DNA of 32,371 bases from Bifidobacterium breve (GCA_945861955.1 CAMAWJ010000005.1:1-32371); one strand, 5' to 3'; counted from the first letter of the stretch, positions 3,562 through 29,575 are shown. The notes: generated from the letters alone by a model not told the origin. Numbers and translations are program-made.

Positions 3562-3567
3562 AATCTA
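3562..3567 (-). promoter_or_regulatory. Candidate -10 (TAGATT) 6 nt upstream of the FAD oxidoreductase ATG
   Basis: TAGATT-CCGCTC-ATG on the minus strand. Confidence 0.55.
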
Positions 3568-3642
3568 CCACCTATGGCGAGGTGTTTACATACTGCGGGT
3601 CGTTGCGATACGGTACGGCTTTGCGCTACAGGAGGACACACG

Positions 3643-4143
3643 ATGGCAGAAATTCTGGCGGGCGAAACATTGATTTGGCAGGGACGTCCGACTTGGAAGT
3701 GGTCGGTTTCGTTTCTGCTCAAATGGGGCCTCGTCGGTCTGCTTCCATTGATCGTTGGCGTGCTGCTGGGTCTCGTCGTGGACGTGCCGATCTCTTGGTT
3801 CTTCGCAGCGACGGTGATCTTCACCGCCATCGTCGTCGTGCTGGCCTGGATTAAGCGTCTCGACAGTTTCTACACCGTCACGGATCGGCGCGTCGTCGTT
3901 CGGCGTGGTATCGCGAACCGCAACGAACGCAGCGCCAGCATCGATCGTATTCAGAATGTCAACACCAAGCAGGGCCTCTATGGGCGCGTGCTCAACTTTG
4001 GTGATATTGAGTTCGACACCGCTGGCTCGGACATCAATGATTCAGGACTCGCCTTGCGTGGCATCAGCGATCCGCACAAGATGCGCGACACGTTCGATCG
4101 CGAGTTGGTTCAGCGGGGCAGTACCAGCGCGGGCGGCGTCTAG
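3643..4143 (+). CDS. Membrane PH-domain protein (bacterial PH / YdbS-like)
   Basis: ATG preceded by AGGAGG (about 3630-3635); two hydrophobic helices followed by YTVTDRRVVVRRGIANRNERSASIDRIQNVNTKQGLYGRVLNFGDIEF, typical of bPH2. Confidence 0.85.
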   Translation: MAEILAGETLIWQGRPTWKWSVSFLLKWGLVGLLPLIVGVLLGLVVDVPISWFFAATVIFTAIVVVLAWIKRLDSFYTVTDRRVVVRRGIANRNERSASIDRIQNVNTKQGLYGRVLNFGDIEFDTAGSDINDSGLALRGISDPHKMRDTFDRELVQRGSTSAGGV

Positions 4144-4147
4144 AGCC

Positions 4148-4498
4148 TCACGGTTCCCAGTCCTCGCCGCCGATATCCCAGCCGACGAGGCAGAACGCGC
4201 TGATCAAGTCGGCGACCTGCTCCCACGTTGTGCGGGCGTCCTCGTCGAGGGAGGCGGGGGTGACGAGCAGCGCGACGAGTTCGCCGTCGTAGCGGACTTC
4301 AACTTCCGTCGTTACGACGCCGGCTTCACCTACCCACGGGCCGTCAGAGAAAGAGCCCTCTTCGATGAAGCGGATCCCAACGCCCGTCGCGTAATGCGCG
4401 CTGAGCGCAGCGATGGTGCCGAGCAGAATCTGATCGGCCTCCTCTGAACGCTCGAGAATCTGCTCGATCGTGGCGACGACGGTGGCTCCTTCGCTCAC
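4148..4498 (-). CDS. Conserved-type hypothetical protein, possibly GAF-like
   Basis: 116 aa ORF with GTG start overlapping the phosphomannomutase stop (GTGA at 4495-4498). Text resembles a short GAF-type fold, but this is a weak call. Confidence 0.6.
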   Translation of the reverse strand: MSEGATVVATIEQILERSEEADQILLGTIAALSAHYATGVGIRFIEEGSFSDGPWVGEAGVVTTEVEVRYDGELVALLVTPASLDEDARTTWEQVADLISAFCLVGWDIGGEDWEP

Positions 4499-5844
4499 GA
4501 GCGGATGACTCCCAGCACCTCGTCGCGGCGAGTCTCCATCTCCGCCTCGGTCGTGGCTTCGAGATTGAGGCGCAGCAACGGCTCGGTGTTGGACGGGCGA
4601 ACGTTGAAGCGCCAGGTCTCGTGGTCGATTGAGACGCCGTCGAGGTGGGTGACTGTGGCACCCGGGCCGTAGCGGTCCTTGAGTTCTTGCAGCTTGAGGG
4701 CGACGTCCGGCACGGGAGAGTTAATCTCGCCGGTGATGAAGTAGCGCTCACGCATTGGGCGCAGCAATTCGACCAGAGTGGTGCCGCTCCGCGAGACGAG
4801 CTGGAGCACGAAGAGGGCGGGCAGGATGCCCGTGTCAACGCCGTAGAACTCACGGAAGTAGTAGTGACCAGACACCTCACCGGCGAACGTGCCGCCTGAC
4901 TCTTTGATGGCGACCTTGATGAAGGCGTGGCCGACGCGCGAAACCTGGGCGGTGCCGCCGCAGCGCGCGACGGTGTCGGGGACGGCGAGTGAGGCGCGCA
5001 CGTCGTAGAGGATGGTCGCACCTGGGTGGTGCTTGAGGACCTCTTCTGCGAGCAAGGCCGTGATGAAATCGCCGGGAACGAACGCGCCTTCCTCGTCGAT
5101 AAAGAAGCAGCGGTCGGCATCGCCATCCCACGCAATCCCAAGCGAGCCGGGGTGCTCGAGCACCTTGGCGATGACAAACTGCCGATTCTCTTCCAGCAGT
5201 GGATTGGGTTGGTGATCGGGGAAGGCGCCATCGGGCGTGAGGAAGTACTCGTGGGCGGTGATCGGTAGTTGCTTGAGGATCGGGCCGAGCATCGTCCCGG
5301 CCATGCCGCTGCCGCCGTCGAGCACGACGCTCAGAGGTCGCAGTGTCGGAGCGTCAATCAGGCCCAGCATCTTGTCGGCGTAGGCCGGCAGCACATCGAG
5401 CGGCGTTGCAACGCCGGGTGTGGCGACAGCAGGCAACTCGGCTGGTCCTGTGGCCAACTTCTTGACCTCGTTCAGGCCAGACGCGCTCCCAACAGGTTGG
5501 GCTTCAGCGCGTACGATCTTCATACCGTTGTATTCGGCCGGATTGTGCGAGGCAGTCACGATGATGCCGCCATCAAGGCCACCATCGGCGACGGCGAAGT
5601 AGAGCATCTCGGTGCCGATCTCGCCCAACACGGCGACGTTTGCACCACCGTCCGTAGCGCCGCGAATGGCTGCCTCGGCGAGCGTTGGCGAGGAGAGTCG
5701 CATGTCGTGACCAATCGCGATGTTCTTCGCTTGAAAGACCTCGACGTAGGCGCGGGCTACGCGATACGCGCCGTCGGGGTCGAACTGGTTCGGGACGATG
5801 CCACGGACGTCATAGGCCTTGAAGATTGCGGGATCGAGCGTCAT
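4495..5844 (-). CDS. manB: Phosphomannomutase/phosphoglucomutase
   Basis: FKAYDVRGIVP N-terminus, phosphoserine loop TASHNPAEYNGMK, DGDADRCFFID metal loop, RPSNTEPLLRLNLEA phosphate-binding loop. ATG at 5844; the track ORF extends artefactually upstream. Confidence 0.95.
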   Translation of the reverse strand: MTLDPAIFKAYDVRGIVPNQFDPDGAYRVARAYVEVFQAKNIAIGHDMRLSSPTLAEAAIRGATDGGANVAVLGEIGTEMLYFAVADGGLDGGIIVTASHNPAEYNGMKIVRAEAQPVGSASGLNEVKKLATGPAELPAVATPGVATPLDVLPAYADKMLGLIDAPTLRPLSVVLDGGSGMAGTMLGPILKQLPITAHEYFLTPDGAFPDHQPNPLLEENRQFVIAKVLEHPGSLGIAWDGDADRCFFIDEEGAFVPGDFITALLAEEVLKHHPGATILYDVRASLAVPDTVARCGGTAQVSRVGHAFIKVAIKESGGTFAGEVSGHYYFREFYGVDTGILPALFVLQLVSRSGTTLVELLRPMRERYFITGEINSPVPDVALKLQELKDRYGPGATVTHLDGVSIDHETWRFNVRPSNTEPLLRLNLEATTEAEMETRRDEVLGVIRS

Positions 5845-6338
5845 GCCTGAGAGGGTACCCATGCATCCCGCAGGAGTCGCCAGGTATCGTCGAGGTGCTG
5901 TGCCATGACGCGCGTGTCGGCCAGCACTGGCATGAAGTTTGTGTCCCCATTCCAACGTGGAACGACGTGCAGGTGGAGGTGTCCTTCGATGCCGGCACCG
6001 GCGGCTCGGCCGAGGTTGAGTCCGGCGTTGGTCCCGTGCGGCTTGAGGGTTCGGTCCAGTGCGCATAGCGATTGGTCGAGCAGGTCCCACAGCTCAGCCC
6101 GTTCAACAGCATCCATTTCGCCAGGGGTGGCGAGGTGGCGATAGGGAGCAATCAGGATGTGACCATTCGTGTACGGATAGAGATTGAGAACCACGAAGCA
6201 GGTCGGTCCGCGGTGCAGGATTAGCTGCTTCTGGTCATCGGTATCGGTCGGTGCGGCGCAAAAGACACATTCGAGTGGATCGTGACCCGACGCGGCCTTG
6301 ACGAACTCCAACCGCCAGGGTGCCCAGATGCGCTCCAC
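5841..6338 (-). CDS. HIT-family protein, Ap4A phosphorylase-like
   Basis: VERIWAPWRLEFV…CVFCAAP…NLYPYTNGHILIAPYRH…GIEGHLHLHVVPRW (HxHxH motif). GTG at 6338; ATGA overlap with manB. Confidence 0.9.
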   Translation of the reverse strand: MERIWAPWRLEFVKAASGHDPLECVFCAAPTDTDDQKQLILHRGPTCFVVLNLYPYTNGHILIAPYRHLATPGEMDAVERAELWDLLDQSLCALDRTLKPHGTNAGLNLGRAAGAGIEGHLHLHVVPRWNGDTNFMPVLADTRVMAQHLDDTWRLLRDAWVPSQA

Positions 6339-6344
6339 ACCGGC

Positions 6345-6350
6345 AGCGTA
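6345..6350 (-). promoter_or_regulatory. Candidate -10 (TACGCT) 6 nt upstream of the HIT GTG
   Basis: TACGCT-GCCGGT-GTG on the minus strand. Confidence 0.6.
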
Positions 6351-6371
6351 CCCCGAGCGGGGGCAGCCCGG

Positions 6372-6377
6372 TACGCT
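6372..6377 (+). promoter_or_regulatory. Candidate -10 (TACGCT) 6 nt upstream of the NUDIX GTG
   Basis: TACGCT-CGTGGT-GTG; mirror image of the HIT promoter. Confidence 0.6.
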
Positions 6378-6383
6378 CGTGGT

Positions 6384-6962
6384 GTGGCGCCGGTTCCAGA
6401 TATCCAACTGCTCGCGACGATCCTCGCGCCAACGCTCGCAGAGCCTGCTCCTGCAGCGACGGCGAGCGTGATGATCTGTCTCCGTGATGGTGCGCGTGGT
6501 ACCGAGATCTTGTTGTGTCGGCGGGCGACGCGTCCGGGTGATCCCTGGTCTGGTCACGTGGGTCTACCTGGTGGACGTGTCGAGGAGGTCGACCGCGACG
6601 CGCTCGACACGGCGGCGCGCGAAACGTGGGAAGAGGTCGGGTTTGACCCGCGTGAACATGGCTCGATCTTGGGCGTCCTCGAACCACTCACGCCTCGTTC
6701 GTTCGCAATTGTGATCTCCGCGTATGTGGCGCACATCACCGATGCCATCGAACTGTCCTTATCCGAGGAGATTGCCGCCGCCTGGTGGACGCCGTTTGTT
6801 GACCTTGAGTTGGTCTCGGCCGAGGTTCCTGAGGCGCCGACGCGTGTTTCGGCGTTTCGCCTTCCACACGCCGATGCTGCGGATGTCGTGGTCTGGGGAA
6901 TTACCTACCGCCTGCTCGACAGGTTGCTCGGGATTACCACCTCACGGGATCTGAGCCAGTAA
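6384..6962 (+). CDS. NUDIX hydrolase, NudL/CoA pyrophosphatase-like
   Basis: LLCRRATRPGDPWSGHVGLPGGRVEEVDRDALDTAARETWEEVGF; GTG start at 6384. Confidence 0.88.
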   Translation: MAPVPDIQLLATILAPTLAEPAPAATASVMICLRDGARGTEILLCRRATRPGDPWSGHVGLPGGRVEEVDRDALDTAARETWEEVGFDPREHGSILGVLEPLTPRSFAIVISAYVAHITDAIELSLSEEIAAAWWTPFVDLELVSAEVPEAPTRVSAFRLPHADAADVVVWGITYRLLDRLLGITTSRDLSQ

Positions 6963-6965
6963 AAT
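6960..6965 (+). promoter_or_regulatory. Candidate -10 (TAAAAT) 6 nt upstream of the TPR gene ATG
   Basis: TAAAAT-CGAGTC-ATG; overlaps the NUDIX stop codon TAA. Confidence 0.6.
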
Positions 6966-6971
6966 CGAGTC

Positions 6972-7328
6972 ATGGATGTGTATGAGCTCTACGTCGAAGG
7001 CCGGTCGCATTTGTCGGCTGGGGAGTACCTGGCCGCGATTCCACCACTCGAGCAGGCGCGTGATCTCTCGCCGGAATCGGGGTCGATTCGCGAGGCGCTC
7101 GCCATCGCCTATCTGCGGGCTCGCCGCTATCGCGATGCGCTGCCAGAGGCCGAGGCGGCTGTCGAATGCTCGCCCAATGATCATTACGCTTATTTCTTGC
7201 ACGGGCGCGCCTTGCAGGGACTCGGCGATTTGACTGCGGCGCGGGGGCAGTTTAGATTGGCGACGTGGCTCCGCCCGGGGGATCAGACCTATCGGGCCGC
7301 GCTCGATTCGGTCGATTCGCCCGCCTGA
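6972..7328 (+). CDS. TPR-repeat protein
   Basis: 118 aa; tandem TPR-like helices (GEYLAAIPPLEQARDLSPESGSIREALAIAYLRARRYRDALPEAEAAVECSPNDHYAYFLHGRALQGLGDLTAARGQFRLA). Confidence 0.85.
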   Translation: MDVYELYVEGRSHLSAGEYLAAIPPLEQARDLSPESGSIREALAIAYLRARRYRDALPEAEAAVECSPNDHYAYFLHGRALQGLGDLTAARGQFRLATWLRPGDQTYRAALDSVDSPA

Positions 7329-7337
7329 CGCATGCGG

Positions 7338-7343
7338 TAGTAT
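7338..7343 (+). promoter_or_regulatory. Candidate -10 (TAGTAT) 7 nt upstream of the tetR ATG
   Basis: GGTAGTAT-TCCGACC-ATG. Confidence 0.6.
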
Positions 7344-7350
7344 TCCGACC

Positions 7351-7977
7351 ATGACTGATCAGTTAGTCAGCGCCGCAGATCACTTGGTCGACACGGATCG
7401 TCCGTCGCAAATTCTCGACTGTGCCTGTGTCGTGATCGCACGCGATGGTGCCGAGGGCCTGCGGATGGCTGCTGTGGCACGCGAGGCTAATGTCTCCAAC
7501 GCCCTGCTCCATTACTACTTCGCCACCCGCGAAGAGCTGATCCGCCAGGCCTTCGAATACCATGATCGACGCGAGACACGAAAGGGCAACGAGCGAATCG
7601 AGCAGATTGCCGACCCGATCGAGCGCATCCGCGATGTCTTGGCCCACGAGTTGGCCGAAGATGCGGCAGTGCGCGAAGGCTGGATTTTGTGGAGCGAAAT
7701 GCTGCGGCTCGCGATGTTCAACGAGGCCCTTCGTGCGTCGGTTGCGGATCGATCGGCGCGTTGGGTTGGGGGTGTGGCAACGATGATTCGCCTCGTCCAA
7801 GCCGACGGTTCTGTTTCGTCCGACATCGATGCCGATGCTGCTGCGTTGCGTCTAACCGCGCTTGTCGATGGCTTGGGCGGTCACATCATCGTCCAGTCGC
7901 GCACACGGGCGGAGGCGCTGGCAGCGCTCGAGTCAGCCCTCTTCTCCGAACTCGGTCTGTCCGAGGTGACTGCATGA
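7351..7977 (+). CDS. TetR-family transcriptional regulator
   Basis: N-terminal HTH: RPSQILDCACVVIARDGAEGLRMAAVAREANVSNALLHYYFATREELIRQAF. Confidence 0.93.
   Translation: MTDQLVSAADHLVDTDRPSQILDCACVVIARDGAEGLRMAAVAREANVSNALLHYYFATREELIRQAFEYHDRRETRKGNERIEQIADPIERIRDVLAHELAEDAAVREGWILWSEMLRLAMFNEALRASVADRSARWVGGVATMIRLVQADGSVSSDIDADAAALRLTALVDGLGGHIIVQSRTRAEALAALESALFSELGLSEVTA
7352..7369. promoter_or_regulatory. Nested palindrome at the tetR start, candidate autoregulatory operator
   Basis: ACTGATCAGT perfect palindrome (7354-7363) and TGACT…AGTCA arms (7352-7369), directly over the predicted transcription start. Confidence 0.35.
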
Positions 7978-9221
7978 GCACCACTCGTCGTCGCGCCAAA
8001 CCGACCCGTGCAGGCGGAGCGACGCTCACGCTCAACGCTAAGGCCTACGCTGATCCAGAGACTTTTGAGCGCGAGCGGCGCGAAATCTTCGCCCGCGCCT
8101 GGATCATTGCGGGACATGTCGCTGAGGTCCGCGAGCCGGGCGATTTTACGACGACCAACATCGCCGGTGAGCCCGTCGTGGTGGTGCGCGACGCCGACGG
8201 GACGCTCCGTGCCTTTTCGAATGTCTGTCGTCATCGCGCAGCCCAGCTGGCAACGGGAACGGGATCGTGTGGCAAAGTCTTGCGCTGCCCGTATCACGGC
8301 TGGACGTATCGTCTCGATGGCACGCTCGCAGCGATGCCCGAGGGGCGTGGATTCGGTGAGGACTTCGACCGCGACGCTGTGCGCCTCCCTGAGTTTAAGG
8401 TCGATACGCTCGCTGGACTCATCTTCGTTTCGATGGATCCCGAAATCGTCCCAGTACGCGAATGGTTCGGTGACATCGTCGAACGGCTCGAGTCGCTCAA
8501 CATCGACCAGCTCGTCCCCGTCACGCAGCGTGATTGGAAGCCGCGCGAGATTCTGCGGGGTATCCCTGATGTGCTCCGCTCGCGCAGCACTGACGACGCA
8601 AAGGCGTTGATTCCCGCCGCCGAACACGGGCGTTGGTATGCCGAGTACGACCACAATTGGAAGACGCTGTCAGACAACTACCTCGAGGGCTATCACGTGC
8701 CGATTGGCCACCCAGGACTCTTGCGGATGCTGGATTATCCGAAGTACAAGCCGACCCTGTATGAGCGCGCCGTCTGGATCGATGGCCCGTTGCGAGACAA
8801 CCCCTCGCGCGTCACGATGGAGCGGCTCTACCAGCGTCTGCACCGGCCGATGCCGGAGTTCCCTTCCGAGTTGCGCAATCAGTGGACGTACGTTCACCTC
8901 TGGCCTGGGCAGTTCATTGACATCTACCCGGAGAGCATCGACGTCTGGCAGATGCAGCCGCTGGGACCGCTGCGAACGCGCACCTGCATGATCGTCTTTC
9001 GCTCGCCGAACGAGACCTTCCAGGACCGCTTCGTGCGCACAATCAACCAGCGCTTCAACAGCGAGGTGATGGACGAAGACGTCACACTCTGCGACGGTGT
9101 TCAGCAAGGCCTCGGCTCCCTCACGTACACGCGCGGTGTGCTCAACGACAACGAAGCCGCGGTTGGCCATTTCCACGATCTGTTGCGCAACGCGGTGCCA
9201 GGGATCGATGACGCACCGTAG
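7974..9221 (+). CDS. Rieske [2Fe-2S] ring-hydroxylating oxygenase, alpha subunit
   Basis: Rieske motif CRHRAAQ…CPYHGWTY; mononuclear iron site DNYLEGYHVPIGHPG. ATG at 7974 overlaps the tetR stop (ATGA). Confidence 0.94.
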   Translation: MSTTRRRAKPTRAGGATLTLNAKAYADPETFERERREIFARAWIIAGHVAEVREPGDFTTTNIAGEPVVVVRDADGTLRAFSNVCRHRAAQLATGTGSCGKVLRCPYHGWTYRLDGTLAAMPEGRGFGEDFDRDAVRLPEFKVDTLAGLIFVSMDPEIVPVREWFGDIVERLESLNIDQLVPVTQRDWKPREILRGIPDVLRSRSTDDAKALIPAAEHGRWYAEYDHNWKTLSDNYLEGYHVPIGHPGLLRMLDYPKYKPTLYERAVWIDGPLRDNPSRVTMERLYQRLHRPMPEFPSELRNQWTYVHLWPGQFIDIYPESIDVWQMQPLGPLRTRTCMIVFRSPNETFQDRFVRTINQRFNSEVMDEDVTLCDGVQQGLGSLTYTRGVLNDNEAAVGHFHDLLRNAVPGIDDAP

Positions 9222-9567
9222 CTTTGGGCGTCACGACTGGCTCGGCCTGACACCCGAGGTTGAGCGATTCGGGCCGCTCCTCGTCGACCGGATCACCGCA
9301 GCACTGGGCGAGTCGCACGATGCGCTTGGTGAGGCACGCGTCGAGGCGCTAATTCGTAATGGCGATGCAGCAGCGTGGCTCACCTACCTCGGCGCCCTGA
9401 CCGCGCTCGTCGATCGCGGCTCGCAGTCGGGTGTTGCGATAGCAGAGATCGAGATCCTGGCCGAGATTCTGCGGGATCAGTATCGACTCGCACCTGGTGT
9501 GCTCGTACTCTCGGAGACCGACGTGGCACGCTCTGATCACCTCGAGGCACTTTTGGAGACACGATGA
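9208..9567 (+). CDS. Hypothetical protein, 119 aa, translationally coupled to the Rieske oxygenase and the acyl-CoA ligase
   Basis: ATG at 9208 overlaps the Rieske CDS; stop overlaps the ATG at 9564. No family recognised. Confidence 0.7.
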   Translation: MTHRSFGRHDWLGLTPEVERFGPLLVDRITAALGESHDALGEARVEALIRNGDAAAWLTYLGALTALVDRGSQSGVAIAEIEILAEILRDQYRLAPGVLVLSETDVARSDHLEALLETR

Positions 9568-11597: not shown

Positions 11598-11615
11598 CGG
11601 ACCAATGGATTAGCC

Positions 11616-14875: not shown

Positions 14876-14924
14876 CCCTCAACCGATTCGGGGGCGCATG
14901 CGATAGCAAGGATGGGGGAACGCC

Positions 14925-14954
14925 AGGGCTCGTCCACCTCGGTGGGCGAGCCCT
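14925..14954 (+). terminator. Probable transcription terminator after the Rieske/ligase operon
   Basis: AGGGCTCGTCCACC / GGTGGGCGAGCCCT: 14-bp stem with one G·U pair, followed by the T-rich CGCGTGTTGTTTTG. Confidence 0.7.
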
Positions 14955-15047
14955 CGCGTGTTGTTTTGAACTGTTAGCTTGATTTGTCTCGGATGTATCT
15001 CGTGAATTGGTCTAGACACCGGTGGGGGCGTGCCCGATGATGTCGGT

Positions 15048-17883: not shown

Positions 17884-17905
17884 AGCCTTCGGAAGCGGCG
17901 TCCGG

Positions 17906-18706: not shown

Positions 18707-18779
18707 AGTACGGGTCAGGTTGCACCGGTTGCTCCCGTGGTCGCTGGACGGCGAGCCAGAACCCTGCAACGATCCTCAC

Positions 18780-20189: not shown

Positions 20190-20197
20190 CGTTTCGG

Positions 20198-20240
20198 TGG
20201 CACGGTCGTTGGCGGTAATCCAACGCGGCGAGTGGTGCCA
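20198..20240. other. Two-tier stem-loop (outer TGGCAC/GTGCCA, inner CGTTGG/CCAACG)
   Basis: Outer arms at 20198-20203 and 20235-20240; inner arms at 20207-20212 and 20220-20225, in the convergent intergenic gap. Confidence 0.5.
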
Positions 20241-20246
20241 ACGAGT

Positions 20247-20272
20247 ACCTGACACGTGCGCACGTGTCAGGT
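20247..20272. terminator. 26-bp perfect palindrome ACCTGACACGTGCGCACGTGTCAGGT; candidate bidirectional terminator or binding site
   Basis: ACCTGACACGTGC followed immediately by its reverse complement, between convergent genes; no U-tract. Confidence 0.5.
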
Positions 20273-20283
20273 GCGTGGCTGGC

Positions 20284-22383
20284 CTAGTCGCCGACGGCAG
20301 CGACTGCGCTGGGTGTCGACTCGTTCGCCTTGGCGACCAGCGTTGCCTCCACCCGATTGTCATGGTAGGTGGGGGCACCTCCCATATCCGCGTCGCGGAC
20401 CGGAGTCGTGGCGTTGACGTTGTGACCGCCATTGTCTTTGGCCCAGTACGCCTTGTACGACCAGGCGACACCGTCACGGGCCTGCGGATGGATTGCCGCC
20501 CGACAGCGAAACGCGCCGCGATCGTTCGCGACCTCGACCTCATCGCCGGCTTCAATGCCGCGTGCGGATGCGTCGTTCTGGCTGAGAAATAGCGTAGGAG
20601 CGCCGGTCATGCGCAGATGTCCGGGCAGGTCGGCGAACGTCGAGTTAAGGAAAAAACGATGTGCGGGTGTGATCAGGATCAGCGGAAAGCGCTGAGCCAA
20701 GACTGGATCGGCGCCCTCAAACGACGGCGTATAGCCGGGGATCGGATCCAAATTGTCGTCGGCCAGCGCTGGCACGGTGATGTGCAGCTTGCCGTCGCGC
20801 GTGGGAAAACCGCCGTTGGCGTGTGGTGCTGTTCCGGCGAGGTCGTCAATGGCCGCGTAGCCCGTCTCGCAGAGAGACTCGAACGTGATTCCGCGCTCGC
20901 GGGCTCGATCGGTGTCAATAAACTGTCGGATCAAGGCTTCGTCGCTGTCGTGGAGGCGTGGGTGCGCCAATTCGAGAGCGGTGGCGAGGCGTCGGAAGAT
21001 CTCAGTGTTCGGTAGACACTGCCCGACCGGCTCGATCGCTGGCAGATTCAGAGTCAGATAGTGGTGGCCGTACGACGGGTGGATGTCGAGGTGCTCGGTC
21101 TGCATCGTGGCCGGCAGTACGACGTCGGCGAACAGTGCCGTGTCGGTCAGTCGGTGTTCCAGTACGGTCAGGTGGAGATCGTCGCGGCGGAAGCCCTGCT
21201 GCACGCGAGTCTGATCGGGTACGGTCGCGGCTGGATTGGTGTTCCACACGACCATCGCGTGCACGGCCGGGTTGAGGGCGGTATCCGTCAACGCCTCGGC
21301 AAGCCTCGACATGTTGATCGTGCGCGCCAGCGGCAGTGGCAGTCCAGCCGGCTCCTCAAGATCGCTGGTCGCGTCATCGAAGCGACCACTCGTCTCCGAC
21401 ACGACACCGCCACCGACGTGCCGAAAGTCACCAGACACTGCGCCAAGCACTGTGATTGCACGAATCGCGGCACCGGCGCCACCGTGGCGCTGAAGACCAA
21501 GACCCAGACGGATCGCCGTCGGGCGTGTCGTGATGATGCGCTCTGCTAGACCTCGAATCTCGCTGGCGGGGAGACCGCAAATCTCGGCGGCCCGCTCGGC
21601 GTTCCAGTCGGCGAGGCGCTCGCGCAACTCCGGCCAGCCGACGGCACACTCCGCGAGCCACTCCTCGTCGCAGGCATCGGCGGCACAGAGCTCTCCCATT
21701 AGGCCCATGGCCAGTGCGGCGTCGGTTCCCGGAAGCAATTGCAGGTGCTGGTCGCAGCGTTCGGCTGTATCCGTCGGTAGCGGGTCGATCGCCACCACGT
21801 GGGCGCCGTTTTGTTGGGCGGAGTGAATAAAGTGCCATTGATGCATGTTCGACGACAGCAGATTGGCGCCCCAGACGAGAATCAGCCTCGCGTGGGCGAA
21901 ATCCTCTGGGTCGGTCCCGACTGGCCGGTGCATCGTTACGCGCAAGGCGGCGTAGGTAGCTGCGTCGCAAATTGTCGTGTCGAGCCGCGATGCGCCGAGG
22001 TGTTTAAAGAGACGCTGGCCCAGTGACCAACCTTGCACAGCACCGAGGGTGCCAGCGTAGTAGAACGGCAGAATCGACTCCGGGCCGTAGCGGTCGATCG
22101 TCGTCCGGAGGGCTGTGGCGGTCAGGCCGATTGCCTCGTCCCAGTCGATTGCTTGGAACCGTCCCTCGCCCTTCTCGCCAACGCGTCGCAGCGGCGTTGT
22201 CAGTCGATCAGGCGCGTAGACGGCATCGAGATAGTTGTTGACCTTGCCGCACAACGAACCGCGGGTGTACGGATGGTCCTTGCGTCCCCGCATCCGGATC
22301 GCCTTGCCATCTTCAACCTCAATCTGCCACGCGCACGTATCGGGACAGTCGAGTGGGCAGGCACCGTTGACGATGTAACTCAT
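20284..22383 (-). CDS. Molybdopterin (bis-MGD) oxidoreductase with N-terminal [4Fe-4S] site
   Basis: CPLDCPDTCAW…GSLCGKV cluster ligands; RFQAIDWDEAI; LVWGANLLSSNMHQW; C-terminal molybdopterin dinucleotide-binding region (GDEVEVANDRGAF). Confidence 0.94.
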   Translation of the reverse strand: MSYIVNGACPLDCPDTCAWQIEVEDGKAIRMRGRKDHPYTRGSLCGKVNNYLDAVYAPDRLTTPLRRVGEKGEGRFQAIDWDEAIGLTATALRTTIDRYGPESILPFYYAGTLGAVQGWSLGQRLFKHLGASRLDTTICDAATYAALRVTMHRPVGTDPEDFAHARLILVWGANLLSSNMHQWHFIHSAQQNGAHVVAIDPLPTDTAERCDQHLQLLPGTDAALAMGLMGELCAADACDEEWLAECAVGWPELRERLADWNAERAAEICGLPASEIRGLAERIITTRPTAIRLGLGLQRHGGAGAAIRAITVLGAVSGDFRHVGGGVVSETSGRFDDATSDLEEPAGLPLPLARTINMSRLAEALTDTALNPAVHAMVVWNTNPAATVPDQTRVQQGFRRDDLHLTVLEHRLTDTALFADVVLPATMQTEHLDIHPSYGHHYLTLNLPAIEPVGQCLPNTEIFRRLATALELAHPRLHDSDEALIRQFIDTDRARERGITFESLCETGYAAIDDLAGTAPHANGGFPTRDGKLHITVPALADDNLDPIPGYTPSFEGADPVLAQRFPLILITPAHRFFLNSTFADLPGHLRMTGAPTLFLSQNDASARGIEAGDEVEVANDRGAFRCRAAIHPQARDGVAWSYKAYWAKDNGGHNVNATTPVRDADMGGAPTYHDNRVEATLVAKANESTPSAVAAVGD

Positions 22384-22389
22384 GGTGCG

Positions 22390-22395
22390 AGTGTA
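22390..22395 (-). promoter_or_regulatory. Candidate -10 (TACACT) 6 nt upstream of the Mo-oxidoreductase ATG
   Basis: TACACT-CGCACC-ATG on the minus strand. Confidence 0.55.
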
Positions 22396-22426
22396 CGCGA
22401 TCTAGCGCGTGAGAACGAGTAAAAAA

Positions 22427-23146
22427 TCAGCGATTGCGGTAGCGCTGAGCCGCAGCGACGAGATCTCGAAAGAGCGCCTGCTGCTCGGGTTCGTGCATTT
22501 TTTCCGGATGCCACTGCACGCCGATGATGGGCCACTCGGCTGGGCCTTCGAGCGCCTCGATGACCACGCCAATTCGTGCTGTCGCGGTCAGCGTTCCGGC
22601 GTCGAGCACCGCTTGATGGTGGATCGAGTTGACGGGAAACGTTGTTGTCCCCATCACCTCTGCGATCCTGGACTGTGCTGCGAGCTCAATTGGGTGTCGC
22701 GACTCCATTAGGGCCTGTGGATTCTTCGGAATCAGAGGATGGCCGTGGTGTTCCTCAAGGTCTTGCAGCATCGTGCCTCCGCTGGCGACTGCGAGGGTCT
22801 GCATGCCCCGGCAAATGCCGAGCACGGGCAATGTGCGTACCGCGGCCTCGCGTGCGAGAGCGAGCTCCCAGAGATCGGCCCCAGCGTTGGGATCTTCGAG
22901 TGTGACTGCAGCGGACTCGCCGTAGTGCTGGGGATCCAAATCGCCGCCGCCTGTCAGGACAAGGCCATCAAGCAGGTCGAGCAGGCCGATCGGGTCGTCA
23001 CCATGCGGAATGATCAGCGGCTGGCCACCTTCGGCCTGAACACAGTTGGTAGTGGCAGGATCGAGCGTGTACAGATCTGTCTGGTCGCCGAGGGGCGTGA
23101 CGAGCGAACGCCGATACGCCGTGAGGCCAATCACGGGACGAGTCAT
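22427..23146 (-). CDS. Class I glutamine amidotransferase-like gamma-glutamyl hydrolase (peptidase C26, PuuD-like)
   Basis: RPVIGLTAYRR, LVLTGGGDLDPQHYGE, LGICRGMQTLAVASGGTMLQDL (nucleophile Cys), NSIHHQAV, GVQWHPE. Confidence 0.93.
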   Translation of the reverse strand: MTRPVIGLTAYRRSLVTPLGDQTDLYTLDPATTNCVQAEGGQPLIIPHGDDPIGLLDLLDGLVLTGGGDLDPQHYGESAAVTLEDPNAGADLWELALAREAAVRTLPVLGICRGMQTLAVASGGTMLQDLEEHHGHPLIPKNPQALMESRHPIELAAQSRIAEVMGTTTFPVNSIHHQAVLDAGTLTATARIGVVIEALEGPAEWPIIGVQWHPEKMHEPEQQALFRDLVAAAQRYRNR

Positions 23147-23152
23147 GACGGC

Positions 23153-23158
23153 AGCCTA
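23153..23158 (-). promoter_or_regulatory. Candidate -10 (TAGGCT) 6 nt upstream of the PuuD-like ATG
   Basis: GGTAGGCT-GCCGTC-ATG on the minus strand. Confidence 0.5.
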
Positions 23159-23162
23159 CCGA

Positions 23163-23882
23163 TCAGCCAAGCGGCCACGGGAGGTCGGGCATATGGGCCT
23201 GCCAGACCTCCGCGAGCGAGCCGTTGTCGATGATCCGTCCGAGGGCGCCATCGAGAGCGTTGAGGAGCTCGTTGTCTCCTCGGCGAACAGCGACACCCCA
23301 CTGGTTGCGGGTCTCAATGGTGAAGGCCAACCGAAGTTCAGGATCGTCATCGAGCGGAACCATCACGACGTCGTCATCGACGAAACCGTCGATCTTGCCC
23401 GAGCGAGTAGCAGCGATCATGTCGCCAAAGACATCGTCCGTCGCACCATCAAAGGCAACCGGAATCACTCCCGGAAACGTCTCGGTCAGAGTCATGTTGG
23501 TACTCGCGGCGATTGCACCGATGCGGAGGCCGGCGCATTCCAGTGGATTAGAGACGGTGCGCTCACGACGCGTGACAAGCGATTCGTTAAAGACCGCGTA
23601 CGGCCTTGTAAAGTCGACCATCTGCTGGCGGGCCGGTGTAATGCCTTGCCCGCACCAGATCGCATCGACGCGTTCCTCGTGAAGTGCGGGATAGAAGTCG
23701 CTCCACTCGAGTGGCACCCAATCGATCAGGAGGCCCAGTTGAGCGGCGACGAGCGCGGCTGCCATCGGCTCGTACCCGGGACGGGTGCCGTCGTCTTGGA
23801 TCAGTTCGAAGAGCGGTGGTGCCTGGAGATCACCACAGCCAAGCGTCAAGACGCCGGGCTCAAGCAGTGGCAGCTCGCTCAT
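23163..23882 (-). CDS. Substrate-binding protein family 3-like (amino-acid SBP fold), apparently cytosolic
   Basis: LTLGCGDLQAPPLFELIQDDGTRPGYEPMAAALVAAQLGLLIDWVPLEWSDFYPALHEERVDAIWCGQGITPARQQMVDFTRPY is SBP_bac_3-like; no signal peptide or lipobox in the N-terminus. Confidence 0.85.
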   Translation of the reverse strand: MSELPLLEPGVLTLGCGDLQAPPLFELIQDDGTRPGYEPMAAALVAAQLGLLIDWVPLEWSDFYPALHEERVDAIWCGQGITPARQQMVDFTRPYAVFNESLVTRRERTVSNPLECAGLRIGAIAASTNMTLTETFPGVIPVAFDGATDDVFGDMIAATRSGKIDGFVDDDVVMVPLDDDPELRLAFTIETRNQWGVAVRRGDNELLNALDGALGRIIDNGSLAEVWQAHMPDLPWPLG

Positions 23883-25147
23883 CGGGACGACTCCGTCGGA
23901 CCGAAAAGCAGTGGCAGTCGAACCGGTCCAGTGTTGCCCGAATCGGGCAGAAATTCGGGCTCACCGTCGTGCCGCAGATTGGGTAGCCGTTGGGCCAGCA
24001 GGACCAGTGCCTCCGTCATGTCGCCCCGTGCAATGAAATGCCCGAGGCAGTAATGACGCCCACCACCGAAGCCAAAGTGCTTCGGACGGTCCTCGATGCT
24101 CATGTCGAACGCGGGGTTTTCGTACTTGTGCGGGTCGGTGCCGCTCGACTCGGTAAAAAGATGGAGCGTCGTGCCTTGGGAGACCTGAATGCCATCGAGC
24201 TCAAAGTCTTCAGCGGCCTCACGCGTGATCCACGTCGTCGTTGGTCGCATGCGCATGATCTCCTCGACGGCATTGGTGGCCAACTCGGGTCGTTCGCGCA
24301 AGAGTTGCCACTGCTCAGGCTGTCGACAGAAGATGTCGATTCCAAGTCCGAGTTGGTTACGCGTCGTATCGATGCCACCGAAGACGAGCAAAGCGATGTT
24401 TTCTCGGAGCTCTTGGTCGGTCAGGGAGTCGCTGTCGACGTTGGCATCGACGAGGCTCTGGAGAAAATCGTCCTTTGGGTGTTGCTGACGGTCCTCAATC
24501 ATGGTGTCGGCGTAAGCGAGCATGTTGGCAAGTCCAGCCTCCATCTCGACCTGCCGTGCCGAGCCGACGATCGAAAGGCCGAGGCCGATCTGCTCGGACC
24601 AGCCGGCGAGCGTCTCCCACTCGTCCTCCGGAATGCCGAGCAGCTTGCAGACAACTCGCGTGGCGTATGGCTCGGAGAACTGGTGCATAAACTCGCACTG
24701 TCCGTCGTCGACGAAGGCGCCGATCAACTCGTTGGCGAGCGCCTGAAACTCAGGTACGAGATTCGCCACGTGCTTCGATGCGAATGCTGGATTGACGAGC
24801 TTGCGGAGACGAACATGATCTTGTCCCTCACGATTGAGCACAATGTTCGACCACCAGTGAGCCCAGGGGCCAGTGATGTTGTTGTGGCGAGACCAGGCAG
24901 CACTGCCTTGGATCAGGCGCTTGTCGTTGACGAGCGCGTTGACTTCCGCGTAGCGCAGCACTGCGAGCCCGTATGGGGTGCGCGCATACGGGCCAGCAGC
25001 ACGGGCGTCGCGAACGGAATCCGAGCGAATCGAAAACGTCGGATCGTTGATGTCGAGGAAGGGCAGCTCAAGCACGCGATCGTCGACGGCCTGGTCGGCG
25101 CGATCAACGGCGGATGCCGAGTCTTTTGCTGCGTTGGGATCACTCAT
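23879..25147 (-). CDS. Cytochrome P450
   Basis: Heme-ligand motif FGFGGGRHYCLGHFIAR, I-helix LLVFGGIDTTRNQ, ExxR in VEEIMRMRP. ATG at 25147; track ORF over-extended. Overlaps the SBP start by ATGA. Confidence 0.95.
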   Translation of the reverse strand: MSDPNAAKDSASAVDRADQAVDDRVLELPFLDINDPTFSIRSDSVRDARAAGPYARTPYGLAVLRYAEVNALVNDKRLIQGSAAWSRHNNITGPWAHWWSNIVLNREGQDHVRLRKLVNPAFASKHVANLVPEFQALANELIGAFVDDGQCEFMHQFSEPYATRVVCKLLGIPEDEWETLAGWSEQIGLGLSIVGSARQVEMEAGLANMLAYADTMIEDRQQHPKDDFLQSLVDANVDSDSLTDQELRENIALLVFGGIDTTRNQLGLGIDIFCRQPEQWQLLRERPELATNAVEEIMRMRPTTTWITREAAEDFELDGIQVSQGTTLHLFTESSGTDPHKYENPAFDMSIEDRPKHFGFGGGRHYCLGHFIARGDMTEALVLLAQRLPNLRHDGEPEFLPDSGNTGPVRLPLLFGPTESSR

Positions 25148-25161
25148 CAACTCTGACAACC

Positions 25162-25167
25162 AGCGTA
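25162..25167 (-). promoter_or_regulatory. Candidate -10 (TACGCT) 14 nt upstream of the P450 ATG
   Basis: AGTACGCT then 14 nt then ATG on the minus strand. Confidence 0.45.
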
Positions 25168-25208
25168 CTTGATGCGAGCGATGCGACGGCGGAACTGACG
25201 TGGTCGCG

Positions 25209-25214
25209 TACCCT
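25209..25214 (+). promoter_or_regulatory. Candidate -10 (TACCCT) 6 nt upstream of the era GTG
   Basis: TACCCT-GCAGGC-GTG. Confidence 0.55.
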
Positions 25215-25220
25215 GCAGGC

Positions 25221-26105
25221 GTGGAGTTTCGCTGCGCACTGATCGGCCTCGCCGGTCGCCCCAATGTCGGCAAGAGCACGCTGGTCAACGCGATCGTTGG
25301 CCAACACGTCACGATCACCTCAAATCGACCGCAGACGACCAGGCGCCGAATTGCCGGAATTGCCCACGGCGATGGTTGGCAGCTCGTGCTCGCGGACCTT
25401 CCAGGCATACAGATTCCGCGCGATGGCCTTACACAGCGGATGGCTAGCAGCGTGCGAGAAACGCTCTCCGACGTCGACCTTGTCTTGCTCGTCCTCGACG
25501 GCACAGAGTCGATCGGTGGTGGCGATCGTGCGAGTGCTGAGGCCGCGTTTGCCGCGGGTGTGCCGGTGATCATCGTCGTCAACAAGACAGATGGCATGTC
25601 GCCTGAACGAATTGGACGGGCGATCGGCGCCGCCGCCGAATTGGGCGACTTCACAGAACTGCACCCGATCTCAGCCATCAATGGTGACGGCGTGCAGGCG
25701 CTCGTTGACGACCTCGTCCGCTTAGCGCCAGAGGGCCCCGCCTTGTTTCCCGACGACGCCAAGTCGTCCGATCCCGTGCGGCTTCAGATTGCCGAACTGA
25801 TCCGAGAGCAGGCCCTGCGCCGGTTGCGCGACGAGGTGCCACACGCGTTGACCGTGGTCGTCGAGGAGTACGAGGCGCCGACGAAGAAGCGGGCGGCGCG
25901 CATTGAGGCGACGATCTACGTGGATTCCAAGTCGCAGCAGGGCATCGTGATTGGTGCCGGCGGCTCGATGATTCGTGCCATCGGCACGTCGGCGCGCCCA
26001 AACATCGAACGGATCATCGGTGCCAAGGTGATGCTCGATCTGCGCGTGCGATCGCAGAGCGGCTGGCGCGACGATCCTGCGCTGCTCGACCGCCTCGGCC
26101 CGTAG
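25221..26105 (+). CDS. era: GTPase Era
   Basis: GRPNVGKSTLVNAIVG, TSNRPQTTRRRIAGI, NKTD, C-terminal KH domain (IEATIYVDSKSQQGIVIGAGGSMIRAIGTSARPNIERIIGAKVMLDLRV). Confidence 0.96.
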   Translation: MEFRCALIGLAGRPNVGKSTLVNAIVGQHVTITSNRPQTTRRRIAGIAHGDGWQLVLADLPGIQIPRDGLTQRMASSVRETLSDVDLVLLVLDGTESIGGGDRASAEAAFAAGVPVIIVVNKTDGMSPERIGRAIGAAAELGDFTELHPISAINGDGVQALVDDLVRLAPEGPALFPDDAKSSDPVRLQIAELIREQALRRLRDEVPHALTVVVEEYEAPTKKRAARIEATIYVDSKSQQGIVIGAGGSMIRAIGTSARPNIERIIGAKVMLDLRVRSQSGWRDDPALLDRLGP

Positions 26106-26107
26106 CG

Positions 26108-27346
26108 CTACGGCTGGCCGTGGGTGCCAGCGAAGGCACCTGGCGTGTACGTGCACTGAGCATTCCAGAGCAGCCAGCCGCCCACTCCTGTGCGGTCGGC
26201 AGCGTCGATCTGCTCCAGCACCTGTGGTAGACCGTAGTTGATGCCGCCAAGCGTGAAGTCTTGGAGCCAGGGGCGGATCTGAACCGTGCCGCCATTCGTG
26301 CGGCGGCGCCAGTCGGAGAGCGCTGCGGCCACCGTGGGCCCAGGCGTATCACCAGGCTTGCTGATGCCAAACTGGCCATCGGTGAAGTGCGACGGATAAA
26401 CCATCGGATAGATGGCGTCGAGGGTGTTCCTCAATTGACCAGGCTTCTGACCAATGCCGAGCTCGCCGGTCGCCGCGAGTCCGAACATGGCAGCAGACAC
26501 ATGAACGCCGAGTGGCTTGAGCGATCCCGATGCCTTCTTCAGAAACGAGGTGATGGTGTTGTCGCGATTACGACCTGGATCGTGAAAGACCATGTCTGCA
26601 GCATCGCCGTCGGTGGGATAGCGAACGTAGTCAAACATGATTTCGTCAAAGCCCAGTTCGGCGGCATACGTTGCCAACTGGATCGGGTATTCCCATGAGG
26701 CCTCATTGGTGGGGTCAGCCCACGTGATGCCAAGCTCGTTTTTCCAGAGACCACCACGACGAGAGCGGACTGCGGTGGACGGATCCGCGACAGGGGCGTA
26801 GCCATCCTGGAACACAACGATGCGGCCGATCACGTAGAGACCGGCTTCGTGGGCTCGTCGAAGCACCTTGACTGGATCGTAGATATTCATGTGCGCGCCA
26901 GCCTTTTTGGCCGTCGGGATTGGTGTGCTGAAGGCAACCTCGCCGCGCTCATCCTTGATGTCGATCTGAATCGCGTTCATCCCAAGCTTTGGGTCGGCGA
27001 GTTCCATGATCGGCTCGAACATGGTGGGCTCGGCGACGCCGTAGCTCGTGACATGGACACCGCGAACGTGATTCGGCATGGCGATCCGCCCACCAACGGA
27101 TTGCTCGGCCGCCGACTGTTCCGGCAAGGCTTCGGTCACGGGGGGAGCCTGCTTGGGTGTCTCACCACTGCGACTCCACGTGAATGCGAACGCTGCGATT
27201 GCGACGGGCAGCAACAGCACCGCGATCAACATCATGCGTCGCTTGCGCTGAATCGCTCGCGCGCTCGCGCGCTGTTTGGCTCGGCGCGAGTTGCGCATCG
27301 CCTCTTGGTGCGCGTCGTAACGCTTCTGGTCGCGGAAGTCATTCAT
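26108..27346 (-). CDS. Membrane-anchored glycoside hydrolase-like protein (DUF4015 type)
   Basis: N-terminal basic stretch and TM helix; VRGVHVTSYGV…MNAIQIDIKDERGEV…YVIGRIVVFQDGYA…FDEIMFDYVRYPTDG…IYPMVYPSHF, characteristic TIM-barrel glycosidase-like motifs. Confidence 0.88.
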   Translation of the reverse strand: MNDFRDQKRYDAHQEAMRNSRRAKQRASARAIQRKRRMMLIAVLLLPVAIAAFAFTWSRSGETPKQAPPVTEALPEQSAAEQSVGGRIAMPNHVRGVHVTSYGVAEPTMFEPIMELADPKLGMNAIQIDIKDERGEVAFSTPIPTAKKAGAHMNIYDPVKVLRRAHEAGLYVIGRIVVFQDGYAPVADPSTAVRSRRGGLWKNELGITWADPTNEASWEYPIQLATYAAELGFDEIMFDYVRYPTDGDAADMVFHDPGRNRDNTITSFLKKASGSLKPLGVHVSAAMFGLAATGELGIGQKPGQLRNTLDAIYPMVYPSHFTDGQFGISKPGDTPGPTVAAALSDWRRRTNGGTVQIRPWLQDFTLGGINYGLPQVLEQIDAADRTGVGGWLLWNAQCTYTPGAFAGTHGQP

Positions 27347-27360
27347 TTCGTGGACTCCGC

Positions 27361-27366
27361 ATAGTA
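27361..27366 (-). promoter_or_regulatory. Candidate -10 (TACTAT) 14 nt upstream of the DUF4015-type gene ATG
   Basis: TACTAT then 14 nt then ATG on the minus strand. Confidence 0.45.
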
Positions 27367-27412
27367 GACGAGTTACGAGTGTGATGGAGCGACCGGGGTC
27401 ACGTTGGGCGGG

Positions 27413-27418
27413 TACGCT
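27413..27418 (+). promoter_or_regulatory. Candidate -10 (TACGCT) 6 nt upstream of the DeoC-like ATG
   Basis: GGTACGCT-CTAAGG-ATG. Confidence 0.6.
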
Positions 27419-27424
27419 CTAAGG

Positions 27425-28099
27425 ATGGCACGACGAACCGGTGATGTGGCTAAATCGATCGAACTGATGCTGCTGCGGCCGCGTCTAACGGCGGGTCAGT
27501 GCGCGGCCTTCTGCGAGGCGGCAATGCAGGCGCACGTGGCAGCAGTCTGCGTGCCACCGACGCATGTGGCGACAGCGAGTGCCGCACTCGTGGGCTCCGA
27601 CGTCAAACTCGTCGCGTTGATCTCGCATCCGTTCGGGACAGATCTGCCCTCGATCAAGGCGCTTGCAGGGCGGAGGGCACTTGAGGATGGTGCGCACGAG
27701 CTCGAGATCGTGGTCGATCTCGCGGCTTTTTCGTCTGGCGATCCGAATCATGTTCGCGATGAACTCACTCGCTGTATCGCCGAGGCCCGAGAAGTTCGAG
27801 CCGAGGTACTCGTACGAGCCGTTGTCGAGACCGGGGTGTTTGACGATCGAACGTTGCGCCTACTCGTGCGTGCGGTGGTGGCAGCCCAGGCGGACATGAT
27901 CGTGACTTCCTCGGGGCTCGTGCCCGAACCTGAGGGTGCCTTGGATGTTGAGCTGCTGCGCGAAGAGGTCGGCGCTGGTGTCGGTGTCAAGGCCGTCCGT
28001 GCCGTGCGGGGCATGGACGAGGTGGCGGAGCTGATTGCGGCTGGCGCGACGCGCGTTGGCGTGTCGAGCCTCGATGTCTTCGCAGAGCCGCAGCGTTAG
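27425..28099 (+). CDS. DeoC-family aldolase homologue with degenerate active site
   Basis: Overall DeoC architecture (VAAVCVPPTHVATA, ELEIVVDLAAFSSGD, VVETGVFDD, VGVKAVRAVRGMDEVAELIAAGATRVGVSS), but KTSTG is replaced by VTSSG. Confidence 0.85.
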   Translation: MARRTGDVAKSIELMLLRPRLTAGQCAAFCEAAMQAHVAAVCVPPTHVATASAALVGSDVKLVALISHPFGTDLPSIKALAGRRALEDGAHELEIVVDLAAFSSGDPNHVRDELTRCIAEAREVRAEVLVRAVVETGVFDDRTLRLLVRAVVAAQADMIVTSSGLVPEPEGALDVELLREEVGAGVGVKAVRAVRGMDEVAELIAAGATRVGVSSLDVFAEPQR

Positions 28100-28980
28100 G
28101 AAGACAGCGCGGCTGCGAGACCGCGCACGCCGGTGCTGTTTGAGATTCGGATTCGGCTCAGCTGCAGGGGATCTGCGGCAGAGTGTACGTCCCCCGACTT
28201 GGTCGTCGTGGCTAACACGTAGCCCGCTTGCTTGACCAATTCGACGGATGCTGGGTCGACAGAGCCCGCCGGATAACAGAACCATTGAACCGGGTGGCCA
28301 AGGCGCTTCTCCAGCGTGAAGCGAGAGGCGCGCAGCGTCTTCAGGGCCGCCTTGGGAGTCATGGATGGAATCTCTGTGTGTGAAACGGAGTGTGAGCCGA
28401 TATCCCAACCGCGCTGCTCGAGGGTTCGTAGCTGCGACCACGTCATCCACGTGGGGGCGGTCTTCTTGAGGTTCGCGATGCGATTGGTGATGACGTACGC
28501 CGTGCCGACCATGCCAGCACGGGTCATGATCGGCGCCGCGATCGTGGCGATGCCGCGGTAGCCATCATCGAAGGTAATCATCACCGGCTTGTCCGGCAAC
28601 GGCTTGCCCTCTTCGAGCGCTCTATACAGCTGCATCTGGGTAATCGAGGTGTAGCCGTTGTCCTGCAGCCACTGCATCTCAAGCGCAAACTCACCGGGGT
28701 CGACCGTCAGATCAATGGTCACTGCTGGCTCGTCGCCGGCGAGGACTGCGATGCGGTGGTACATCAGGATCGGTACGCGCACGGTGCGTGTTGGCAAGGG
28801 GTCGGGCAGCGTCAGCAGTGGCACGTCCTTGACTGGCTCGGCAATTGTCGTGGCGTCGGCTTGCGTCGTCGCAGCTGCGGGTGCTGCCGATGAGTTCGTG
28901 GTTTGGTGAAGGAGCGAGGAGCCCGCGACGACGGCAACCACGATTGCCGCGAGGACGACCAGAGCAGGGCGGACACGCAT
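28096..28980 (-). CDS. Polysaccharide deacetylase (NodB domain), membrane-anchored/secreted
   Basis: N-terminal hydrophobic segment; PILMYHRI, VMITFDDGYRGIAT, DIGSHSVSHTEIPSM, VQWFCYPAGS. Confidence 0.93.
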   Translation of the reverse strand: MRVRPALVVLAAIVVAVVAGSSLLHQTTNSSAAPAAATTQADATTIAEPVKDVPLLTLPDPLPTRTVRVPILMYHRIAVLAGDEPAVTIDLTVDPGEFALEMQWLQDNGYTSITQMQLYRALEEGKPLPDKPVMITFDDGYRGIATIAAPIMTRAGMVGTAYVITNRIANLKKTAPTWMTWSQLRTLEQRGWDIGSHSVSHTEIPSMTPKAALKTLRASRFTLEKRLGHPVQWFCYPAGSVDPASVELVKQAGYVLATTTKSGDVHSAADPLQLSRIRISNSTGVRGLAAALSS

Positions 28981-28989
28981 CCAAGTGCA

Positions 28990-28995
28990 ACTCTA
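28990..28995 (-). promoter_or_regulatory. Candidate -10 (TAGAGT) 9 nt upstream of the deacetylase ATG
   Basis: GGTAGAGT then 9 nt then ATG on the minus strand. Confidence 0.45.
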
Positions 28996-29014
28996 CCTGC
29001 TCTTGATTCAGCCC

Positions 29015-29020
29015 TATAGT
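29015..29020 (+). promoter_or_regulatory. Candidate -10 (TATAGT) 6 nt upstream of the NUDIX GTG
   Basis: TATAGT-GCCGAG-GTG. Confidence 0.6.
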
Positions 29021-29026
29021 GCCGAG

Positions 29027-29575
29027 GTGGAACAACAGGGACCCAACGCGTGGCAGACCCTCGGCAGGCGTGTACTCCATGATGGTGTAGTCCGCATTGA
29101 GGAACACGACGTTCGCACACCAGAGGGCCGCGACTATCAATTTCCGCTGATTCTCTCGCCAGGATTTGCAAAAGTTGTTCCGTTACTTCCGAATGGCAAC
29201 GTTGTGCTCGTGCGCCAGTATCGCTACGCGATGGGCCTCGAGACCCTCGAGGTGCCAGCAGGTGCGCTCGATGCGGACGAGGAGCCGCTCGACTGTGCGC
29301 GCCGCGAGCTCGGTGAGGAGACGCTCCTCCGGTCGGACGAAATCGAACCGTTGGGAGAGTTCTGTACGAGTCCCGGTCGCATGAACGAGCGTGGCTACAT
29401 CTTTTTGGCGCGCAATTGCATTCCCGATTCAACCGCTGCGCAACACGAGCCGACACTGCCCATCACGATGCCGTTAGCGGACGCGATCGCGATGATTGGC
29501 GGCGAGATCTTGGCGGCGACGAGTTGCTTGGCACTTCTGCTGGCGCAGCGTCGACTCGCCGGGCTCGATCGATAA
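29027..29575 (+). CDS. NUDIX hydrolase, ADP-ribose pyrophosphatase-like
   Basis: VLVRQYRYAMGLETLEVPAGALDADEEPLDCARRELGEETLL; GTG at 29027. Confidence 0.9.
   Translation: MEQQGPNAWQTLGRRVLHDGVVRIEEHDVRTPEGRDYQFPLILSPGFAKVVPLLPNGNVVLVRQYRYAMGLETLEVPAGALDADEEPLDCARRELGEETLLRSDEIEPLGEFCTSPGRMNERGYIFLARNCIPDSTAAQHEPTLPITMPLADAIAMIGGEILAATSCLALLLAQRRLAGLDR

Follow-up and report, generated by a model that had tools for sequence, protein, structure and literature searches.

The 32,371-nucleotide stretch CAMAWJ010000005.1:1-32371 (GCA_945861955.1), which was analysed whole and is here called the window, carries short TANNNT boxes lying 6 or 7 nt upstream of start codons, an arrangement that points to leaderless transcription. 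The genome that bears it is an uncultured lake actinobacterium, a Thermoleophilia-type metagenome-assembled genome (MAG), and the window is contig C5 of an assembly of 1.1 Mb in 93 contigs, 69% complete. A sequence-only reading had reported ten genes with such a box at a gap of 6 (7 for tetR), the gap being the number of nucleotides between the last T of TANNNT and the start codon. Every one of these boxes and gaps was re-read from the sequence and is correct, and a further box, that of the phosphomannomutase (PMM) gene, had been missed. The boxes are listed below.

3562-3567, minus strand: TAGATT, box of FAD1 (DAO-family oxidoreductase); gap 6, ATG at 3555; gap-6 TANNNT in 7 of the 8 relatives listed.
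5852-5857, minus strand: TACCCT, box of PMM; gap 7, ATG at 5844; kept in the genus.
6345-6350, minus strand: TACGCT, box of the HIT-domain gene; gap 6, GTG at 6338; gap-6 TANNNT in 11 of the 11 relatives listed, out to the family, with ATG and GTG alternating.
6372-6377, plus strand: TACGCT, box of NUDIX-1; gap 6, GTG at 6384; TACGCT, TAGGCT or TACCCT at gap 6 in 9 of the 9 same-genus copies listed.
6960-6965, plus strand: TAAAAT, box of the TPR gene; gap 6, ATG at 6972; TAAAAT, TAGAAT or TAGGAT at gap 6 in 7 of the 7 relatives listed.
7338-7343, plus strand: TAGTAT, box of tetR; gap 7, ATG at 7351; gap-7 TANNNT (gap 6 in one relative) in 5 of the 5 relatives listed.
22390-22395, minus strand: TACACT, box of the molybdopterin oxidoreductase (Mo-oxidoreductase); gap 6, ATG at 22383; box and gap identical in L053 and L057.
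23153-23158, minus strand: TAGGCT, box of the PuuD-like gene (Peptidase_C26); gap 6, ATG at 23146; gap-6 TANNNT in L052, L053 and L057.
25209-25214, plus strand: TACCCT, box of era; gap 6, GTG at 25221; of 10 same-genus genomes, all but G004 have TACCCT or TAACCT at gap 6, the upstream DNA being divergent.
27413-27418, plus strand: TACGCT, box of the DeoC-like gene; gap 6, ATG at 27425; the listed same-genus copies have TACGCT or TAGGCT, likewise at gap 6, and L059 of the same family has TACGAT at gap 7.
29015-29020, plus strand: TATAGT, box of NUDIX-2; gap 6, GTG at 29027; TATAGT, TACAGT, TATTGT or TAAGGT at gap 6 in 7 of the 7 relatives listed.

Coordinate 3562, with which the sequence-only reading opened its span, is the final base of the FAD1 box, and GGTACGCT recurs, as had been said, at three genes (HIT, NUDIX-1 and DeoC-like). 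Pfam supports the earlier labels for nine of the ten genes first reported (DAO oxidoreductase, HIT, two NUDIX, TPR, TetR, molybdopterin oxidoreductase, Peptidase_C26, and an Era-type GTPase with KH); the DeoC-like protein gave no Pfam match at E 1e-5. Some boxes lie at genes 9-22 nt from, or overlapping, the gene upstream (TPR, tetR and PMM), so the signal is not restricted to operon heads. The TPR gene begins 9 nt past the NUDIX-1 gene, while the PMM box sits inside the 3' end of HIT and the boxed PMM start overlaps the HIT stop codon. In a family member (G015, locus L158) the PMM box is TAGCCT at gap 6 before a GTG start, and its TAG doubles as the HIT stop codon.

The excess of these boxes over chance was measured at several levels. 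In the window, on both strands, TANNNT stands at gap 6-7 before 14 of 1,995 ATG/GTG triplets (0.7%), and a plausible boxed start at these gaps was found in 11 of the 29 called genes, in comparison with 0-2 at eleven control gap pairs (binomial P about 1e-9). The genome sample (G000) comprised the window and 20 further stretches (397 kb), 429 kb and 411 genes in all. Starts were chosen by a trained codon model using coding potential and start-codon type only, with no upstream information. Under these coding-only starts, TANNNT occurs at gap 6 in 33 and at gap 7 in 24 of the 411 genes, followed by 7 genes at gap 8, 6 at gap 9 and about 2 per other gap; the genome-wide positional enrichment on which the sequence-only reading had staked its claim therefore shows a peak at gaps 6-7. 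When every in-frame ATG/GTG near the starts was considered, the counts were 46 at gap 6 and 32 at gap 7, against 2 and 2 for out-of-frame codons of the same stretches. At the level of genes, a plausible boxed start is present in 85 of 411, with a control mean of 11.

How many transcription units use this signal was judged from putative first genes, defined as divergent or lying over 60 nt past the gene before them. The strict box is found at 53 of 188 such genes (28%; control about 6), as well as at 19 of the 168 genes lying 25 nt or less from the upstream gene, and scoring with a relaxed weight matrix, for which mismatch rates were assumed, puts the excess at 25-37% of first genes. Of the genes that open a transcription unit, roughly one in four to one in three bear the box at leaderless distance. 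The sequence-only reading had held most first-in-operon genes to be leaderless, GTG starts included: a -10 element at leaderless distance before both ATG and GTG starts stands, while "most" is too strong in light of the strict and relaxed fractions.

Comparison with relatives, whose era genes are 75-99% identical within the genus, indicates that the boxes are maintained. Box and spacing are retained in same-genus genomes, while the flanking DNA changes and ATG alternates with GTG, at era, DeoC-like, NUDIX-2, Mo-oxidoreductase, PuuD-like, HIT, NUDIX-1, TPR, tetR and PMM, and at FAD1 in 7 of 8 relatives. The relatives also settle where several proteins begin. For HIT, NUDIX-1, era, DeoC-like and NUDIX-2, whose starts the sequence-only reading had moved downstream to the box, they keep the box, the spacing and the N-terminus and do not keep the upstream in-frame extension; because these extensions are less conserved than the proteins, the five corrections are supported. 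For PMM, era, DeoC-like and NUDIX-2, the coding-only caller chose starts other than the conserved boxed ones. Outside the genus era is mostly without the box, and leaderless starts would thus turn over gene by gene. The gap 6-7 excess also appears in the sampled genomes G001, G003, G015, G016, G020 and G039, and as judged from sampling across genus, family and order, the pattern is order-wide.

Further signs bear on whether the start codon coincides with the start of the transcript, and here the statistics were pooled over nine sampled genomes. A Shine-Dalgarno (SD) match of at least 4 nt precedes 17% of boxed genes and 45% of the others (p 1e-13), and one of at least 5 nt precedes 4% and 20%, respectively. 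In the window itself an SD is mostly missing, as the sequence-only reading had noticed: none was found at nine of its ten genes, and FAD1 has only a chance-like AGGTG. A pyrimidine occupies position -1 in 88 of 112 gap-6 genes (79%), in comparison with 658 of 1,262 other genes (52%; p 3e-8). Boxed starts comprise 116 ATG and 64 GTG codons, and none of the 34 TTG starts has a box. The depletion of SD, the lack of TTG and the -1 pyrimidine are as expected if transcription begins on the start codon. No strong -35 consensus was detected, as no column exceeded 0.22 bits at -40 to -30 in the gap-6 or the gap-7 set. Loss of the anti-SD as a cause of the SD-poor starts was rejected: the 16S gene was not detectable in the organism's own genome, and the 16S of a same-order genome has its anti-SD CCTCC intact.

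As a separate observation, gaps 6 and 7 are divided 26:26 among ATG starts and 20:6 among GTG starts in the 429 kb sample (Fisher p 0.03, one test among several); in the nine pooled genomes the ratios are 69:47 for ATG and 43:21 for GTG, so that the preference of GTG for gap 6 is much weaker.

The window also holds boxes at greater distances. The sequence-only reading had reported four of them and had named the PH-domain gene as an exception carrying AGGAGG; both statements were borne out, and the PH-domain gene has a TACGGT box of its own 28 nt upstream.

171-176, plus strand: TACCAT, box of rel; gap 10, ATG at 187; predicted leader about 4 nt; most genus copies, and L185 and L186 of the same family, keep GATACCAT/GGTACCAT.
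3609-3614, plus strand: TACGGT, box of the bacterial PH-domain gene; gap 28, ATG at 3643; leadered contrast case.
3630-3635, plus strand: AGGAGG, SD of the PH-domain gene.
25162-25167, minus strand: TACGCT, box of the P450 gene; gap 14, ATG at 25147; predicted short leader; equal gap in L052 and L053.
27361-27366, minus strand: TACTAT, box of the DUF4015 gene; gap 14, ATG at 27346; predicted short leader; TANNNT at gap 12-14 across the genus.
28990-28995, minus strand: TAGAGT, box of the polysaccharide deacetylase gene; gap 9, ATG at 28980; predicted leader about 3 nt.

Domain searches confirmed the identities of PMM, PH, DUF4015, polysaccharide deacetylase and P450. Most genus copies of the PH-domain gene retain both its upstream TANNNT box and a GGAGG-type SD. 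In the divergent region between the DUF4015 and DeoC-like genes (27346-27425), a GAGCGACCGGG-type sequence and a CGTCTA..AT box are kept across the genus beyond both -10 boxes, and these are possibly a regulator site.

The signal has close counterparts in the literature. Zheng and others described leaderless genes of Actinobacteria and Deinococcus-Thermus in which a TANNNT core, with middle bases that are uninformative at high GC, precedes the start by about 12 bp, and a leaderless share in Actinobacteria that averages 19.2% and ranges from 2.3 to 29.8% (Zheng et al., 2011; PMC3160421). The signal found here is the same, and 85 of 411 genes (control 11) falls within the published range, with no difference of substance. 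In M. tuberculosis, start sites were characterized by TANNNT without a -35 consensus and by C at -1 ahead of a purine at +1 (Cortes et al., 2013; PMC3898074), and leaderless starts in mycobacteria function with no codon other than ATG or GTG (Shell et al., 2015; PMC4633059). The TANNNT -10, the lack of a -35 consensus, the purine at +1, the bias at -1 (C in those species, a pyrimidine here) and the use of ATG/GTG and not TTG are shared with M. tuberculosis and M. smegmatis. Transcript ends and translation were measured in those species, whereas here the position at which transcripts start, the sigma factor involved and leaderless translation are inferred by reading and comparing sequences.

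Leaderless transcription from -10 boxes is very probably the best explanation of TANNNT at gaps 6-7. The (G)GTANNNT motif would act as the -10 element of a promoter of the housekeeping sigma factor, and with its last T 6-7 nt before the start, RNA polymerase would initiate on the A or G of ATG or GTG. The resulting mRNA would have no 5' UTR, and ribosomes, by analogy with mycobacteria, would begin directly on the 5'-terminal RTG with no need for an SD; this mode would coexist with leadered SD starts in the genome and in its order. Several points weigh against this explanation: the starts were called by a home-made program run over 38% of a MAG assembly that is itself incomplete; transcript 5' ends are deduced by reading and comparing DNA only; gap 7, and the gaps of 9-14 at four genes, imply either that the start is flexible or that the leaders measure 1-8 nt; and two genomes have too few boxed genes to decide alone, namely G013, with a weak gap 6-7 excess and four boxed genes, and G017, with three.

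Three other explanations were weighed. The boxes could be -10 elements many of whose transcripts have an ultra-short leader, 1-8 nt in length. Gap 7 almost equals gap 6 in frequency, small tails extend over gaps 8-10, and rel, deacetylase, DUF4015 and P450, at gaps 9-14, look similar in the relatives that align there; however, the peak is at gap 6 with almost nothing at gap 5, and in the gap-6 class the -1 pyrimidine and the purine of the start codon fit a +1 on that codon, which leaves such leaders as an unlikely general account. Far less probable is that TANNNT serves as a translation signal or regulator site, with transcription beginning further upstream. Like a ribosome-binding site, the box is fixed in position relative to the start codon, yet a similar box lies 28 nt before the PH-domain gene and is then followed by an SD, which suits a promoter and not a start-codon signal. 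The box also agrees with the mycobacterial -10, and symmetric boxes common to both genes of some divergent pairs occur at 18 and 23 bp, spacings given for E. coli bidirectional promoters in the account discussed below. Finally, since starts were at first picked by eye and TANNNT alone is a weak motif, the box might reflect base composition, or starts read with the motif in mind. The same peak arises with starts called blind to upstream sequence and is absent at out-of-frame codons and shifted gaps, and relatives conserve the box; these controls refute chance, which can be considered negligible.

If start codons mark transcript starts, they also reveal how divergent promoters are arranged. In a passage of Warman et al. 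(2026; PMC12825309) that cites Warman et al. (2021), start sites of E. coli bidirectional promoters lie most commonly 18 bp apart, and 23 bp is also common. The sampled genomes contain 35 divergent pairs boxed on both sides, and in six of these a distance of 18 or 23 bp separates the implied starts. Elsewhere in the genus, some divergent leaderless pairs resemble the symmetric -10 promoters which that passage describes, one symmetric box lying between start codons that are separated by 18 or 23 bp, whereas the window's own pairs differ, each having two separate boxes and implied starts 44-46 bp apart. HIT and NUDIX-1 start 46 bp apart and the implied starts of deacetylase and NUDIX-2 are 44 bp apart, so neither has the 18/23 bp geometry, and one shared bidirectional promoter for HIT and NUDIX-1 was rejected. 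The start codons of these two pairs (6338-6384 and 28980-29027) lie 46-47 bp apart, a spacing at which, by geometry, each -35 region would fall near the other promoter's -10 box. The symmetric cases are as follows.

L041:2238-2261, L032:2001-2021, L083:14487-14507, L193:555-573 and L194:1260-1278, both strands: divergent start codons flank TANNNTA or ANNNTANNNT at a mutual distance of 18, 20 or 23 bp, and to either side lies an open reading frame (ORF) of 148 codons or more.

Sites of this kind recur at similar places in several members of the genus. An ABC-F-like gene and a gene of unknown type (L041) are 23 bp apart, with similar sites in G001, G004, G005, G008, G010 and G012, and a thioesterase-like/methyltransferase-like pair (L193, L194) is 18 bp apart, these names coming from reading the translations. 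Across 61 genomes of the order, CAY-N6-ANNNTANNNT-N6-RTG was found at 108 sites, against 26 for the reversed pattern and 12 for a pattern with both gaps set to 11, and CAY-N5-TANNNTA-N5-RTG at 92 against 30, counts that are unfiltered for genes on both sides, include orthologous sites and have in the reversed pattern an imperfect control. A biotin-ligase-like gene, so named by its translation (L189:1712, L191:1533, L192:1570), has a leaderless-type GTG and a TANNNTA box in nearly every genome of the genus; as a two-gene case it was dropped, the opposite frame having only 14-17 codons. A literature search found no bacterial paper joining leaderless starts with bidirectional promoters. On balance, these sites suggest somewhat better than evenly that the order has divergent pairs in which one symmetric -10 (TANNNTA or ANNNTANNNT) is common to two leaderless genes; one short palindrome would then be promoter, intergenic region and start-site selector at once. 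Because polymerase can face only one way at any moment, expression from such a site would alternate between the two genes.

The leaderless pattern is an expected actinobacterial trait confirmed by related genomes, and not a new mechanism. In our literature searches, no leaderless study naming Thermoleophilia or Solirubrobacter was found, apart from a table of anti-SD types for the former and a toxin paper on another subject for the latter, and the present analysis extends the known trait to Thermoleophilia-type lake bacteria. It thereby allows start codons to be assigned and promoters to be located from sequence in an uncultured lineage, and, if the shared-box reading of the divergent pairs is true, leaderlessness would make promoter geometry readable in the start codons themselves.

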